Positions 10,034 through 51,283 of a stretch of DNA of 64,000 bases are shown one piece after another (position 1 is the first letter of the stretch; each line of letters begins with the position of its first letter). The notes below the pieces were generated by a model. The model made no database searches. It saw only the letters and a program-made list of their open reading frames with translations, and was not told the DNA's origin. A program made the position numbers and the translations under genes. Origin of the DNA: Aliicoccus persicus (GTDB taxonomy: Bacteria; Bacillota; Bacilli; Staphylococcales; Salinicoccaceae); NCBI RefSeq assembly GCF_900110815.1, contig NZ_FOIT01000001.1, forward strand, positions 231,910-295,909, written 5' to 3'.

Positions 10034-11566
10034 ATGAATGAAGAACAGAGAAGAGCACATTCTAAAGTAAATACGTCAAAAAAAGAAGAGAAAGACTACA
10101 GTAAATACTTTGATAATGTGTATCAGCCACCAAATTTGAAGGATGCCAAAGTGCGTGGAAAATCTGATGTTGTGCATTCGGATTTCAATATAGATGAAAA
10201 GTTTAAAGGCATGGGTAAAGGACGTAAGTTTTACATCAAAACTTACGGATGTCAAATGAACATTCACGATACAGAAATTATGGCCGGTATTTTTACAGCA
10301 CTCGACTACGCGCATACGACAGATGTAAATGATGCGGATGTTATCTTGCTTAATACTTGTGCAATTCGTGAAAACGCTGAAAATAAAGTGTTTGGTGAAA
10401 TTGGTAACTTAAAACACTTAAAGCTTGAGCGACCAGATGTGTTGATCGGTGTCTGCGGTTGTATGGCGCAAGAAGAATCAGTTGTGAATAAAATACTAGA
10501 ATCATACCAAAACGTTGACATGATCTTTGGTACACATAATATTCACCGTCTGCCAAACATTTTAGACGAAGCATATATGTCTAATGCGAAGGTTATTGAA
10601 GTATGGTCTAAAGAAGGTGACGTCATTGAAAACTTACCAAAAGTACGAGATGGCGCAACAAAAGCATGGGTAAATATCATTTACGGTTGTGACAAGTTCT
10701 GTACATATTGCATCGTGCCGTTTACACGTGGTAAAGAACGCAGTCGTATGCCGGAAGAAATTTTATCAGAAGTAAAAGAACTTGCAGCAAATGGTTACCA
10801 AGAAATTTGTTTACTTGGACAAAACGTCAACGCGTACGGTAAAGATTTAGATATCGATTATGATCTTGGTGATCTTATGCGAGACATTTCGAAAATCGAT
10901 ATCCCACGCGTACGCTTTACGACATCACACCCTTGGGATTTCTCCGACAGTCTAATCGATGCACTTGCTGAAGGTGAAAATATGATGCCGCATATCCATT
11001 TACCAGTTCAGTCAGGAAATGACCAAGTCCTTAAAATCATGGGTAGGAAATATACGCGAGAAAGCTATTTAGAACTCGTGAAGAAAATCCGTGAGAGAAT
11101 GCCAGATGTCGCATTAACAACAGATATCATCGTCGGATATCCAAACGAAACAGAAGAGCAGTTTTTAGATACGATTTCACTATATGAGGAAGTTGGATTT
11201 GAACATGCTTATACGTACATCTACTCACCGCGAGAAGGTACGCCAGCTGCAAAAATGAAAGATAATGTATCAGACGAAGTAAAACGAGATCGTTTACAGC
11301 GTTTGAATCGCGTGGTGACACATAATACGGCGCATGCGTTGTCTAAATTCGTAGGTGAGACAGTAGAAGTACTGTGTGAAGGTACATCTAAAAAGCGTGA
11401 TGATATTTACGCGGGGTATACGGATAAGCAAAAACTTGTGAATTTTACTGCGCCAGATGATAGTGTTATAGGTAAAATAGTAAAAGTAAAAATAAATCAT
11501 GCTCGAAACTATTCACTAGATGGTGAGTTTATCGAAGTGGTGAACAAAAATAAGGTGGAAATTTAA
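10034..11566 (+). CDS. miaB: tRNA-2-methylthio-N6-dimethylallyladenosine synthase
   Basis: Radical-SAM methylthiotransferase that adds a 2-methylthio group to i6A37 of tRNAs reading UNN codons; acts after MiaA, also encoded in this window. 510 aa, with the N-terminal extension (about 65 aa) common in Bacillota. Seen: [27 protein letters not shown] and GVCGCMAQE (three Cys for the auxiliary cluster), the radical-SAM motif CDKFCTYC in [17 protein letters not shown], and a C-terminal TRAM domain. ATG 10034 is preceded by GTAGGTTTT, a modest ribosome-binding site. TAATG overlap with ymcA. Confidence 0.96.
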
Positions 11567-11994
11567 TGTACTCAAAGGATGAAATCGTAAAAGAAGCAAA
11601 AGAATTAGGCCGTATGATTGCGAATACAGAGCAGGTTGAGTTTTTTAAAAAAGCAGAAGCTAAAATTCATGAAAATGAAGACGTTAGAAAAAGAATGGCG
11701 AGCTTGAAAAGCTTGCAAAAGCAAGCGGTGAACTTCCAGCAGTATGGTAAAGAAAAAGCGTTGAAGATGACAGAAGAAAAAATAGAAAAAATTCAGGATG
11801 AACTAGATGAGATGCCAATTGTGGATCAGTTTAAAGAATCCCAAACACAAGTGAATCAGATTTTACAGATGGTGTCGCACGCAATTAGTTCAACAGTGAC
11901 TGAAGAAGTCATCAAATCAACAGGTGGCGACTTATTGAAGGGCCAGACTGGTGCTGAGGTGCGTAACCAGCCGAATCAGACAGAGATAAAGTAA
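11566..11994 (+). CDS. ymcA: YmcA/RicA-family Y-complex protein
   Basis: 142-aa all-helical protein of the YlbF/YmcA family. In Bacillus RicA joins RicF and RicT in a complex that steers RNase Y mRNA processing and carries iron-sulfur clusters. Seen: N-terminal [19 protein letters not shown], a central amphipathic region with KRMASLKSLQKQAVNFQQYG and a C-terminal ISSTVTEEVIKSTGGDLL typical of the family. It overlaps miaB by one base (TAATG), the conserved miaB-ymcA pairing. A hairpin with T-run, which is also the first unit of the 51-bp array, ends the transcript. Confidence 0.88.
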   Translation: MYSKDEIVKEAKELGRMIANTEQVEFFKKAEAKIHENEDVRKRMASLKSLQKQAVNFQQYGKEKALKMTEEKIEKIQDELDEMPIVDQFKESQTQVNQILQMVSHAISSTVTEEVIKSTGGDLLKGQTGAEVRNQPNQTEIK

Positions 11995-12041: not shown

Positions 12042-12086
12042 TGCTACTTCGAGCATGAATTTGCGTACGAAGTAGCAGCTTTTTTG
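12042..12086 (+). terminator. Terminator of miaB-ymcA (array unit 1)
   Basis: TGCTACTTCG (12042-12051) pairs perfectly with CGAAGTAGCA (12068-12077), followed by GCTTTTTTG. Lies 48 bases past the ymcA stop. Confidence 0.75.
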
Positions 12087-12092
12087 ATTTAC

Positions 12093-12137
12093 TGCTACTT
12101 CGGGGTTGAAAAATGGTGTGAAGTAGCAGGTTTTTTA
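12093..12137 (+). terminator. Second tandem terminator (array unit 2)
   Basis: TGCTACTTC (12093-12101) pairs with GAAGTAGCA (12120-12128), then GGTTTTTTA. The same stem as unit 1, giving back-to-back terminators; from unit 3 on the T-run is lost. Confidence 0.6.
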
Positions 12138-12587
12138 TTAATCGCTAACTCAGCCCGAAAAATTCCTTTGAGTTAGCGACTATTTAGGTTTATCGCTAAC
12201 TCACGCTCGAAAAATGTGGTGAGTTGACAGGGGATTTGAATTAGTGCTAACTCAAGCACAAAAAATGGATTGAGTGATCACGGTTTCTGATTTCGTGCCA
12301 ACTCAATCTCGAAAAATGTGTTGAATTGGCATGGTTTCTGATTTCGTGCTTACTCAAGCTTGAAAAATGTTGTGAGTAAGCACGGCTTTTAATTTCGTGG
12401 TAACCCGAGCCCAAAAAATGGAGTGAGTTACCACGGATTGTGATTTTGTGGTAACTCGAGCCCGAAAAATGGAGTGAGTTACCACAGATTGTGATTTCGT
12501 GGTAACTCGAGCCCGAAAAGTGGAGTGAGTTACCACAGTTTCTGATTTAGTGCTTACTTGATCCCGAAAAAAGTTGTGAGTGAGCAC

Positions 12588-12849
12588 AGTTTAGAAAAGT
12601 GGAGTATAGTAGCATGTGTATAATTCCATCATCAGCTTCAATATGAGACAAAACGATTTTTAAATATTAAAGGGAAAAATGGGACTATATTTTAAAGTAA
12701 ACAGGTAATCCGAGGGTTTTTGAAGATCTATTGGCAGTCTAGTTAAAGATTAGTATTACTCATTCTTTTAGCTTAAAAGAGTAAGTTCAAAGGTTGACTG
12801 AACGAAGATTCTATATGGAACATTAAAACCAGACAAAAGGGTGAATTAT
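12588..12849. other. AT-rich spacer before the broken DUF2332 gene
   Basis: No open frame worth reporting. It holds one hairpin at about 12755-12785 (TTACTC...GAGTAA enclosing CTTTTAGCTTAAAAG). A TTGACT at 12794 has no -10 element at proper spacing, so no promoter is claimed. Confidence 0.5.
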
Positions 12850-13891
12850 GTGGATCAGAAAGCTTTGTCTAATATGTTTAAAAGATTTTCCGAGGAAGAA
12901 TGCAAAGGTACGAGTGAATTGTATGAATTTCTATCTTTACAAATAGCTTCGGATGAGCAATTACTTGAGTTATCTACTTATGTAAGTGAAGGACAGCCCA
13001 AGCCAAACATGTTATTTGGCGCTGTTCATTACTTGTTATTACAAGGTTCAAATCATCAGTTGAAAGATTATTATGAAAGTATAACTAATCCTCCAAAAAA
13101 TAAGGAAGGGTCTTTTCCTTTATTTAAGGATTTTTGCCTTAAAAATAAACAAAAAATAATAAACATTGTGAAGAGTAAATTAGTGCAGACAAATGAAGTA
13201 AGACGATGTGCTTATCTTTATCCAACATTTTGTTATGCATTTAATCAAGTAAATAAACCCTTGGCTATGATTGAAATAGGGACAAGTGCAGGGCTGCAAT
13301 TAATGTGGGATAAGTTTAGTTATTCATACGGAAATGATAATAAATTCGGAGATGTTAATTCAACAGTTCATATAACGGCAGAAGTTAAAGGTGAACGACC
13401 TGAAATTCCCATTTCAAGTCCACCTGTTAAAAGTAGGATTGGTGTAGATTTAAATATCATTGACTTTAATAATGATGAAGATTATAACTGGTTAAAATCA
13501 CTCATTTGGCCTGAACATAAAGAGAGATTAAAGCTTTTTGATGATGCTGCTGAACTGTTAAAAAAAACACCCTCCAAATCTTATAAATGGTGACGGTGTA
13601 CTATTGCTTGATAGTATCGTAAAGGAAATACCTATAGATCAAGCAATATGTGTTTTCCATACACATGTGGCTAACCAAATGCCAAAGGATATGAAAATAA
13701 ATTTATTAAATAAAATTGAGAAAATAGGTTTAGAAAGAGATGTTGTTCATGTATACAATAATATTTGGGATAAATCATTACACCTTGATTATTGGATAAA
13801 TGGCAAAGAAACGAAATTAATAGTCGGAGATACAGATGGCCACGGACGTTGGTTTCAATGGAAGCTAAATGATTCCTCTATCTCTAACTAA
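12850..13891 (+). pseudogene. DUF2332 family gene, frameshifted at an A8 tract
   Basis: Two adjoining frames together make one roughly 345-aa DUF2332 protein (function unknown; S-adenosylmethionine-type fold has been suggested for relatives). Part 1 to 13593 has LVQTNEVRRCAYLYPTFCY, AMIEIGTSAGLQLMWDK, GVDLNIIDF and SLIWPEHKERL; part 2 (to 13891) has NGDGVLLLDSI, AICVFHTHVANQMP. The frame is lost in the run of eight A at 13560-13567: with seven A it would read LLKKHPPNLINGDG and continue to 13891. Start taken as GTG 12850, 6 bases after AAGGGTG; GTG 12841 is possible. Codon use is more AT-rich than in the neighbours, suggesting acquisition. Could be a sequencing error or a phase-variable tract. 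Confidence 0.85.
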
Positions 13892-43509: not shown

Positions 43510-45036
43510 TTACTCTGCATCCTCTTCTTCTACATCTTCTTCAGCGTCCGCATCTTCTTCAGCATCAGCGTCTTCTTCAGCATCTGCATCTTCTTCTGTA
43601 TCTTCATCAGTATCAGCGTCTTCTTCAGTATCTGCATCTTCTTCAGTATCTGCATCTTCTCCAGTATCTGCATCTTCTTCAGTATCTGCATCTTCTTCAG
43701 TGTCTACGTCTTCCTCATTATCTACATCATCTTCAGTATCAACGTCCTCTTCAGTATCTACATCTTCAGAATCGTCATCATCTTCGACAGCTTCGCCACC
43801 ATCTGCAGCAGTAATTACATAAATCTTACCACTATCAGTACCGGCAATAAGTTTACCGTCAGAAGTAACTAATACATCACGGAAGCGTTCGCCTTCTTCT
43901 GTTAATAGACGCTCTTCACCAACAATTGTATCGCCTTCAATGACCATACGTAAAACATAGTTTGGTGCTAAACCACCGATGAATAGGTTGTTCTCCCATT
44001 CAGGAATTGCATCGTTATCGTAGAACATCATACCACTTGGTGCTGATGTTGGATCCCAGTAGTATCTCGGTTCAACAAATCCTTGTGCTTCATGTTCTGA
44101 AATACCATCGTTGATTAATTCACCAGAATACTCGATACCATAAGAAACGACTGGCCAACCGTAGTTGTTACCTGGCTCGATAATGTTAAGTTCGTCACCA
44201 GCTTGTGGTCCAAACTCAACAATCCATAAATCATTCGTTTCTGGATGGAAGTCGATACCTTGGATGTTACGGTGACCATAAGTATAAATACCATCTAAAG
44301 CTTCTTCATCATCGATGAATGGGTTAGTATCTACAGGTTCACCTTCTGGTGTAATATGAATGACCTTACCAAGATAAGCATCTAAATCTTGTGCACGTTC
44401 ACGAATTGGGTCATCTGAACGTTCACCAGTTGTAACAAAAATGTTTCCTTCTTCGTTAAAGACGATACGTCCACCATAGTGTAATGTACCATCATATCCT
44501 GGTTCAGCTTGGAAGATCACTTCAAGATCTTCTAATTGAGACTCATCTTCTGATAATACACCTCTAGCAACAGCTGTTAATGTACCATCATCGACATCTT
44601 GAGCAAATGTCATGTAAACCATTCTTGACTCTTCAAAGTCAGGAGCTAGTGCTAAATCGAGCAAACCACCTTGACCTTCATTGTTAATTTCAGGTGTACC
44701 TTCGATTGGATCTGAAACAGTACCATCTACAATATTTACAAGTAGTAATTCGCCAGTGTCTCTTTGAGTGACTAAGATACGATCTTCATCAAATTCAACC
44801 ATACCCCATACTACGTCAAGTCCTTCTGCAACGACTTCAACGTTTAACTCAGTTTCTGTTTCTACTGCAGGTGCTCTCGTTTGTTCTTCAAAAGCTCTTT
44901 CGAATTCAGTTACCTTTGGCTCTGATTCTGCTGATCCATCATCTTCTTGAGCGAGTGCAGGTGCAGCTAAAGTTAAACCAGCTGCAATAGTTGCAAGTGC
45001 TAGTGATGACTTAAATAATGAATATTTGCTTTTCAA
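43510..45036 (-). CDS. Secreted PQQ-type sugar dehydrogenase with acidic repeat tail
   Basis: 508 aa. Signal peptide (MKSKYSLFKSSLALATIAAG, cleavage after APALA), then a six-bladed propeller of the soluble aldose dehydrogenase (GSDH/YliI) family: HYGGRIVFNEEGNIFVTTGE, LDAYLGKVIHI, GHRNIQGIDFHP, WIVEFGPQAGDELNIIEPG, NNYGWPVVSYG. Such proteins oxidise sugars with PQQ and calcium; no PQQ genes lie nearby. Residues about 415-508 are almost only Asp, Glu, Ala, Thr, Val in six-residue repeats (DTEEDA), an 18-bp DNA repeat; no LPXTG follows. TTG 45036 sits 9 bases after GAAAGG; TTG 45045 is a poorer start. Confidence 0.88.
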   Translation of the reverse strand: MKSKYSLFKSSLALATIAAGLTLAAPALAQEDDGSAESEPKVTEFERAFEEQTRAPAVETETELNVEVVAEGLDVVWGMVEFDEDRILVTQRDTGELLLVNIVDGTVSDPIEGTPEINNEGQGGLLDLALAPDFEESRMVYMTFAQDVDDGTLTAVARGVLSEDESQLEDLEVIFQAEPGYDGTLHYGGRIVFNEEGNIFVTTGERSDDPIRERAQDLDAYLGKVIHITPEGEPVDTNPFIDDEEALDGIYTYGHRNIQGIDFHPETNDLWIVEFGPQAGDELNIIEPGNNYGWPVVSYGIEYSGELINDGISEHEAQGFVEPRYYWDPTSAPSGMMFYDNDAIPEWENNLFIGGLAPNYVLRMVIEGDTIVGEERLLTEEGERFRDVLVTSDGKLIAGTDSGKIYVITAADGGEAVEDDDDSEDVDTEEDVDTEDDVDNEEDVDTEEDADTEEDADTGEDADTEEDADTEEDADTDEDTEEDADAEEDADAEEDADAEEDVEEEDAE

Positions 45037-45150
45037 AATTATCAACCTTTCAAAGTGTATTTAAAAGCTTCGCATTGATCCAAGTGTAACGTGACAATCG
45101 TTTCTACGTTAGAGCTGATCAAAGCAATTCGAACTCTATTGATAATCATA

Positions 45151-48253: not shown

Positions 48254-49264
48254 ATGAAGAAAACATTATCTATACTTGCTGTGTTGTCTCTAGGTACCGC
48301 GACTTTTATTGCTGCTGAAAACGAATTTCTAGAGAATGTCGCTTATGCGCAAGAGGATGAAGAAGTTGAAGAAGATGTTGATGAGGAAGTATCTGAAGAA
48401 GAGGAAGAAGACGAAGATACTGTTGTAGATGAAGAAGACGAGGAAGATGAAGAAGACGAGGAAGAAGTAGACCCACAACTCGGACAGAAATTATTTGCTG
48501 CATTTACACAACATTCTGCAGTAGAAAATTACTTGTTTGATATTTATGGACTTGAAAATAATACAACGCAGTATTTGGATGATCAATACCAAGTCGAAAT
48601 GCCGAAGTTTTATCCGAATCAATATTTAGTTAAAACGACGCAATTTGATGAATTTGCTGAAGTTCCAGAAGGCATGGAATTTTACCTTGTGTTACCGAAT
48701 AAAATAAATGAACAGGTTGTTTACGGCTTCAATGAAGATGTTGCTATCGTGTTTGTAAATCCACCGTTCATTCCTTTATATTCGAGTATGATTTCTAATG
48801 GGGTCGAGTTTGATAGTGAAACGTTACTTGCGAATAATCTAGAACTTTCAGAAGATGCGCTTGATCGCATCGTATTTTCACCGACAAACTTTGAAACTGA
48901 AAATTTAAACAATGAAAACTTTGCAAAAGTTTGGAAGTTAGTTAAAGGTGATGATGTCGCTGAGGATGAAGTATTCGAAGTGAGACGTGACTTACAGTAC
49001 GTAAACTCTGACTTGAGAAACAATTCTTATATTTATCCGGATAATACGTTTGAGATTCGTGCAACAACATCTGAAGATAATTTAGTATTCACGATACAAC
49101 CTGATGGTGGCATTATGGTGTATCCTGATGTGCCTTATATTGTCGTAGAATCTGATGTCGATTCTGTCGAAGCAACGAAAGCAGTGCTCGAAAATCATGA
49201 GATGTACCACGTCTCTGAAGTATCTGATATCGATGTGTCTGATATTGTTGATCAGTTTCAGTAA
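48254..49264 (+). CDS. Secreted protein with acidic low-complexity N-terminus, unknown
   Basis: 336 aa. Signal peptide ending NVAYA at residue 32, then about 40 residues made almost only of Glu, Asp and Val (34-73), then a 260-residue domain with no family I recognise (QLGQKLFAAFTQHSAVENYL; PEGMEFYLVLPNKINEQVVY; NNSYIYPDNTFEIRATTSED; GGIMVYPDVPYIVVESD). No membrane anchor or sortase motif at the end. ATG 48254 behind AAAAAGGTGA. Stand-alone unit with own promoter and terminator. Acidic linkers of this kind occur in secreted proteins of salt-tolerant Staphylococcaceae; that is an inference. Confidence 0.75.
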   Translation: MKKTLSILAVLSLGTATFIAAENEFLENVAYAQEDEEVEEDVDEEVSEEEEEDEDTVVDEEDEEDEEDEEEVDPQLGQKLFAAFTQHSAVENYLFDIYGLENNTTQYLDDQYQVEMPKFYPNQYLVKTTQFDEFAEVPEGMEFYLVLPNKINEQVVYGFNEDVAIVFVNPPFIPLYSSMISNGVEFDSETLLANNLELSEDALDRIVFSPTNFETENLNNENFAKVWKLVKGDDVAEDEVFEVRRDLQYVNSDLRNNSYIYPDNTFEIRATTSEDNLVFTIQPDGGIMVYPDVPYIVVESDVDSVEATKAVLENHEMYHVSEVSDIDVSDIVDQFQ

Positions 49265-50831: not shown

Positions 50832-51283
50832 GAATTTGCGTGCCAATGAGAGTAGCTCATAGTCCGTTAAATTGATTTGCACGCCAATGAGAGTAGCTCA
50901 TAGTCCGTTAAATTGATTTGCACGCCAATGAGAGTAGCTCATAGTCCGTTAAATTGATTTGCGTGCCAATGAGAGTAGCTCATAGTCCGTTAAATTGATT
51001 TGCACGCCAATGAGAGTAGCTCATAGTCCGTTAAATTGATTTGCACGCCAATGAGAGTAGCTCATAGTCCGTTAAATTGATTTGCGTGTCAATGAGAGTA
51101 GCTCATAGTCCGTTAAATTGATTTGCACGTCAATGAGAGTAGCTCATAGCCTCGTAAACGGATTTGCACGCCAATGAGAGTAGCTCATAGTAACCCAAAC
51201 GGATTTGCACGCCAATGAGAGTAGCTCATAGTAACCCAAACGGATTTGCACGCCAATGAGAGTAGCTCATAGTCAACCAAACG
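50832..51283. repeat. Eleven tandem 41-bp repeats
   Basis: The core CCAATGAGAGTAGCTCATAG starts at 50843, 50884, 50925, 50966, 51007, 51048, 51089, 51130, 51171, 51212 and 51253, exactly 41 bases apart. The core holds an inverted repeat ATGAG-AGTAG-CTCAT. Flanks vary in a patterned way: TTTGCAC or TTTGCGT before the core; TCCGTTAAATTGA after it in units 1-7, CTCGTAAACGGA in 8, TAACCCAAACGGA in 9-10, TCAACCAAACGG in 11. It fills the gap between two divergent genes. Not protein-coding. Confidence 0.95.

Follow-up and report, generated by a model that had tools for sequence, protein, structure and literature searches.

Helically phased hairpin arrays at gene ends in Aliicoccus persicus: a dispersed palindrome family with a possible double-stranded-DNA function

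An array of 11 hairpins occupies positions 12042-12586 of the window, the 64,000-nucleotide stretch of the Aliicoccus persicus genome analysed here. The reading put forward, with confidence that stops somewhat short of even, is that it belongs to a dispersed set of helically phased palindrome arrays, predicted to function as double-stranded DNA and to be recognized by shape more than by sequence. In all, the host genome carries about 190 of these hairpins, grouped in about 33 intergenic arrays that lie mostly at the 3' ends of genes.

The array and its genome-wide family

Each hairpin has 10-nt arms and a 16-nt loop, and the unit-to-unit steps are 51, 50 and then eight times 51 bp. The 11 units, 10-bp stems and 50-51 bp spacing reported by the first-pass annotation are thus borne out. 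The constant loop that it also described is not: loops keep their length and an A-rich centre, with GAAAA at loop positions 6-10, and the exact 13-mer GCCCGAAAAATGG occurs in 1 window unit only. Stem changes are compensated in the opposite arm, units 8-10 are close copies, and the array folds much better than shuffled sequence on both strands (z -11.7 and -14.1). No Rfam family match was found at 12.0-12.6 kb, and no open frame covers 80% of the array. The features are as follows.

11566..11994, plus strand: ymcA/ylbF-family gene (Com_YlbF, PF06133), upstream of and co-directional with the array
12042..12077, plus strand: hairpin unit 1, TGCTACTTCG/CGAAGTAGCA, followed 3' by TTTTTT, terminator-like, at the ymcA terminator position (a single ordinary terminator in relatives)
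12093..12128, plus strand: hairpin unit 2, TGCTACTTCG/TGAAGTAGCA, followed 3' by TTTTTT
12143..12178, plus strand: hairpin unit 3, CGCTAACTCA/TGAGTTAGCG
12194..12229, plus strand: hairpin unit 4, CGCTAACTCA/TGAGTTGACA, imperfect
12245..12280, plus strand: hairpin unit 5, TGCTAACTCA/TGAGTGATCA, imperfect
12296..12331, plus strand: hairpin unit 6, TGCCAACTCA/TGAATTGGCA
12347..12382, plus strand: hairpin unit 7, TGCTTACTCA/TGAGTAAGCA
12398..12433, plus strand: hairpin unit 8, TGGTAACCCG/TGAGTTACCA
12449..12484, plus strand: hairpin unit 9, TGGTAACTCG/TGAGTTACCA
12500..12535, plus strand: hairpin unit 10, TGGTAACTCG/TGAGTTACCA
12551..12586, plus strand: hairpin unit 11, TGCTTACTTG/TGAGTGAGCA, with wobble pairs
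50834..51274, unstranded: intergenic tandem array of 41-bp units (10.8 copies at 93% identity), located upstream of a NUDIX gene; a second array length class, of 4 helical turns

Searched with a covariance model built from the 11 window units, the host genome yields at least 100 copies. A refined model finds 152 host copies, and a separate hairpin scan of the host array loci gives 194 hairpins. The stem classes TGCTACTTC, TGCCAATTC, TGCTAACTC, TGCTTACTC, TGCTCACTC, TGGTAACTC and TGCCAACTC recur across arrays, where they follow a block-wise mosaic order, and several arrays contain identical adjacent units. Between 13 (firm) and 16 arrays lie between convergent genes, and 1 between divergent genes. 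Convergent and divergent junctions are equal in number on a circular chromosome, so that this excess yields a sign-test p of about 0.0009 or less. In co-directional settings, units are oriented with the genes in about 11/17, a weak preference. The lone divergent case (L093 4510-4840) is a 51-bp array of two opposite-orientation blocks between TetR and GNAT genes. A second 51-bp family of the host, with stem CGCACA/TGTGCG, is found at G000:C7:187626-188037 and C5:156375-156531 (L217), adjoining 41-bp arrays.

A gap of 47 bp separates the stop codon of the ymcA/ylbF-family gene from the start of the window array. Five Salinicoccus species have one ordinary terminator 3' of ymcA, with a stem unrelated to the array, and the same holds for ymcA in relatives with a readable 3' end; unit 1 thus occupies the ymcA terminator position. 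With about 33 arrays in the genome, the adjacency of the window array to ymcA is incidental. A decoy for a Y-complex or RNase Y type factor, as first suggested, is rejected, because arrays flank dozens of unrelated genes and ymcA of relatives has a plain terminator. The terminators just 3' of ymcA in Salinicoccus (L041-L044) and in genus g2 (L148-L150) share a CTGTACA stem, which hints at a preferred terminator stem across genera. Between the array and mutS, at 12841-13891, a frameshift divides a DUF2332 gene into two parts, which cover positions 2-232 and 244-334 of PF10094; the gene is probably a pseudogene or a sequencing error.

Stem complementarity and helical phasing

The covariation of stems claimed at first pass holds far above shuffled controls. 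Among 148 distinct units, double-change cells number 175 against 60 in shuffles, and 96% of cells pair, a share that drops to 29-41% in slid structures. Sister units, picked by loop similarity only, have both arms changed at 118 positions, where independent arms would give 24; in 104 of the 118, one Watson-Crick pair is replaced by another. Arms are more complementary to their partner beyond the loop than to the neighbouring arm beyond the spacer, a contrast that is sharpest where the stem class changes. Shared ancestry alone is insufficient for this excess, which is due to either selection on the hairpin or a palindrome-restoring copying mechanism. The earlier view that the array is not plain duplication stands as far as the compensated stems go; tandem duplication occurs too, as units 8-10 and the identical neighbours in other arrays attest.

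Spacing is equally regular. Adjacent host-genome steps measure exactly 51 bp in 90 of 100 cases. For a phased pattern of four GAAA, the 16 genomes of the closest genera (g1, g2 and g6) contain 178 matches at a period of 51 bp against 3 at 48 bp and 6 at 54 bp; overlapping matches in these counts are not mutually independent. In a tandem-repeat scan of stretches chosen mostly irrespective of repeats, multi-copy intergenic arrays have periods of 41 (11 arrays) and 51 bp (4), and hardly any others; periods of 81-84 bp represent double units. At about 10.2 bp per helical turn, the two lengths correspond to 4 and 5 turns and lie one turn apart. Varied-sequence 41-bp arrays recur both in the host and in genus g6, and the array at 50834-51274 is possibly related to the 51-bp hairpin arrays. 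The window also contains, at 43510-45045 and 48254-49264, genes for probably exported proteins with long acidic repeat stretches, which are encoded by tandem repeats of 48, 45, 18 and 9 bp.

Most 51-bp steps were possibly inherited from one ancestral array, so that only about nine irregular junctions test phasing independently. The irregular hairpin steps of the host (41, 42, 70, 71, 71, 82, 82, 91, 91, 91, 92, 98.5 and 111.5 bp) fit a 10.1-10.2 bp lattice, a fit equalled by 1 in 20,000 random sets. These exceptions to 5 turns thus comprise 4, 7, 8, 9, 10 and 11 turns. Several junction fillers of equal length proved homologous, and the test was therefore redone on merged junctions (n=9), giving p=0.00008 at 10.2 bp and 0.0005 with the period floating between 10.0 and 10.6. 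With distinct lengths only, p is 0.002 (10.2 bp) and 0.012 (floating period). The phasing of the irregular steps is the chief ground for a double-stranded-DNA function, on a modest number of junctions.

Transcript, mobile repeat or DNA structure

The best-surviving alternative, though a rather unlikely one, is an RNA element: tandem 3'-UTR hairpins that would fold in the nascent transcript and act as a series of intrinsic terminators and as barriers to exonucleases, providing fail-safe termination between convergent genes and stabilizing mRNA 3' ends. The location of arrays at gene 3' ends suits this explanation, as do unit 1 at the terminator position of ymcA in relatives and a stem MFE of about -16 kcal/mol. 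T tails (at least 5 T within 8 nt downstream) follow about 70% of TGCTACTTC and TGCCAATTC units and almost never appear on the reverse strand. Such one-strand tails on two stem classes make it likely that T-tailed units act as terminators; units 1 and 2 were not listed by a terminator consensus scan, which permits loops of 3-8 nt only. Most TGCTCACTC and TGGTAACTC units, however, lack the tail, which only 19-40% of them have. Selection on a one-strand transcript predicts an excess of G.U mismatches, and none is seen in the host, where stem pairs 1-9 contain 29 G.U against 25 A.C. In genus g2 the counts are 54 G.U against 25 A.C, with the strand chosen by model score, which can itself create bias. 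Whole-turn spacing, moreover, has no role in RNA, and one array lies between divergent genes. Of the structural selection in RNA or DNA first proposed, the RNA part is therefore weakened, and the equal mismatch counts together with spacing in B-DNA turns favour a function in double-stranded DNA. Against the DNA reading, unit orientation with flanking co-directional genes (about 11/17) and T-rich 3' sides on one strand are hints that point to RNA. Terminators are likely to have been the evolutionary source of the arrays, with the first units retaining the job.

A selfish or neutral REPIN-like repeat is unlikely. Palindromes would here amplify without host function, and template switching at quasi-palindromes, not selection, would restore complementarity. 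Identical neighbours and mosaic class order speak for active duplication, two g2 species differ in unit number at a shared site beside tuf, and symmetric G.U/A.C mismatches suit template correction. The Y1_Tnp domain of RAYT/IS200 transposases (PF01797), on the other hand, was not found in the host genome, control genomes being positive, and IS200/RAYT mobilization is rejected on that ground. The same explanation leaves unaccounted for both the 41- and 51-bp periods with unrelated stems across families and the phased irregular junctions. Operator arrays, in which each stem class would supply inverted half-sites for cooperative, whole-turn-spaced binding of a sequence-specific protein, would fit the helical phasing and a core, TGCTNACTC or GCTCACTC, common to genera g1, g2 and g10 and family f2, yet are improbable in the face of seven or more stem classes plus the unrelated CGCACA class in one genome, of arms that covary although independent half-sites need not, and of a 3' rather than promoter location. 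A resemblance to CIRCE/HrcA was set aside, the half-sites being different. For recombination hot spots, another early suggestion, no evidence was found.

Relatives, known repeats and a proposed role

The earlier claim that geometry is kept while stems change holds between genera, where the stems are wholly different. Arrays of 51-bp hairpins with unrelated stems occur in sister genera, two other families and Gemellaceae; between stem families the arm distance varies and the period is constant. Six genomes of the sister genus g2, in the same family, have the same kind of unit, with a period of 51 in 34 of 35 steps. One genome of genus g10 (family f3) has five units at period 51 with loops such as AGGTTAAAAACAGGAG, and one of family f2 has three similar units directly after a TCTAAAC-stem array, both at 51. 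In Salinicoccus (taken as genus g4 from the match of S. albus), the covariance-model search gave only a single terminator-like match. A sequence-blind scan of genus g6 detected a 13-unit array with stem GGTGATAAGT/ACTTATCACC at exactly 51 bp, 10-nt arms, a 16-nt loop and, in most units, GAAA at loop positions 6-9; a MAFFT alignment of the GGTGATAAGT units is out of register. Further stems under the four-GAAA 51-bp pattern are CTTGCTCAT, CTGTCTCAT, GTCTAT, TTCTATAA, TCCGGA, TCAAATCG, CTGCGGAAT and, in the host, CGCACA, and the Gemellaceae array has stem CAAAATGGAAA. Locus L232 is an intergenic 51-bp array with no clear hairpin. A protein repeat of 17 codons accounts for some Gemella and staphylococcal 51-bp matches, which were set aside, and is rejected for the window array, which no open frame spans.

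The first-pass annotation knew of no described element with this shape. Related kinds are described; the 51-bp hairpin arrays themselves were not found in a literature search. Most known REP/BIME-like arrays come from Proteobacteria. In enterobacteria and pseudomonads, REP/BIME elements are intergenic palindromes of hundreds of copies, in regular clusters at 3' ends or between convergent genes, with subtype mosaics (PMC2817692, PMC3733652). The host arrays resemble them as short intergenic palindromes in more than 100 copies, with 3' or convergent placement and mosaic subtypes, and differ in the 16-nt loop, stems unrelated from array to array and an exact whole-turn period. No constant GTAG or CGTC tag of the REP type accompanies the palindrome in 150 aligned units. 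The BOX element of Streptococcus pneumoniae has tandem hairpin-forming boxB modules between genes, bounded by boxA and boxC, and has been regarded as MITE-like (PMC3049150). It shares with the host arrays a tandem hairpin-forming module in the intergenic regions of a small genome; the host arrays have a whole-turn period and, on a non-systematic reading of array ends, no common end module was noticed. With tag and transposase absent and no BOX-like ends noticed, the arrays are filed as neither REP nor BOX. SPRITE, also of S. pneumoniae, is a Rho-independent terminator-like repeat between convergent genes, with a single 18-bp stem and a T-rich tract (PMC3049150); convergent placement is shared, whereas SPRITE is not described as tandem and many host units lack a T tract. 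With intrinsic terminators, T-tailed units 1-2 share their place at the ymcA terminator site of relatives; the 16-nt loop, the tandem repetition and the many units without a T tail in several stem classes set the arrays apart. According to a 2006 survey, large repeat families could not account for the intergenic stem-loops of low-GC Firmicutes (PMC1590033). A 2026 survey was limited to spacers of at most 8 bp (PMC13155455), so that arrays of this kind would have been missed.

For the double-stranded-DNA reading, the following mechanism is proposed. (i) Palindromes with arms of about 10 bp, a 16-bp A-rich centre and whole-turn spacing would form a shape signal at transcription-unit ends. (ii) This spacing would place all units on one helix face, so that the array could be used by a putative protein (gyrase- or nucleoid-protein-like) that bends DNA cooperatively or senses cruciforms or supercoiling or, alternatively, by cruciforms extruded under supercoiling. 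(iii) Action would occur where transcription ends, most often between converging genes, in a working mode likened to that of enterobacterial BIMEs. (iv) Gene-proximal T-tailed units would also provide the upstream gene with intrinsic terminators. (v) Whole-unit tandem duplication would let arrays grow and shrink.

A wider and more tentative claim, possible but on the doubtful side, is that these arrays represent an undescribed Staphylococcales element. It would consist of palindrome arrays defined by their geometry, an A-rich centre and whole-turn spacing of 41 or 51 bp, in which stems are interchangeable, recognized as DNA structure, whether cruciform or bent, phased palindromes, and organizing or insulating the ends of transcription units. 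The arrays offer many natural replicates that vary freely in sequence and yet maintain complementarity and helical phase, which separates the DNA-structure, RNA-structure and sequence-specific hypotheses. The role of palindromic intergenic arrays, an old question, thereby becomes directly testable in a low-GC Gram-positive lineage.
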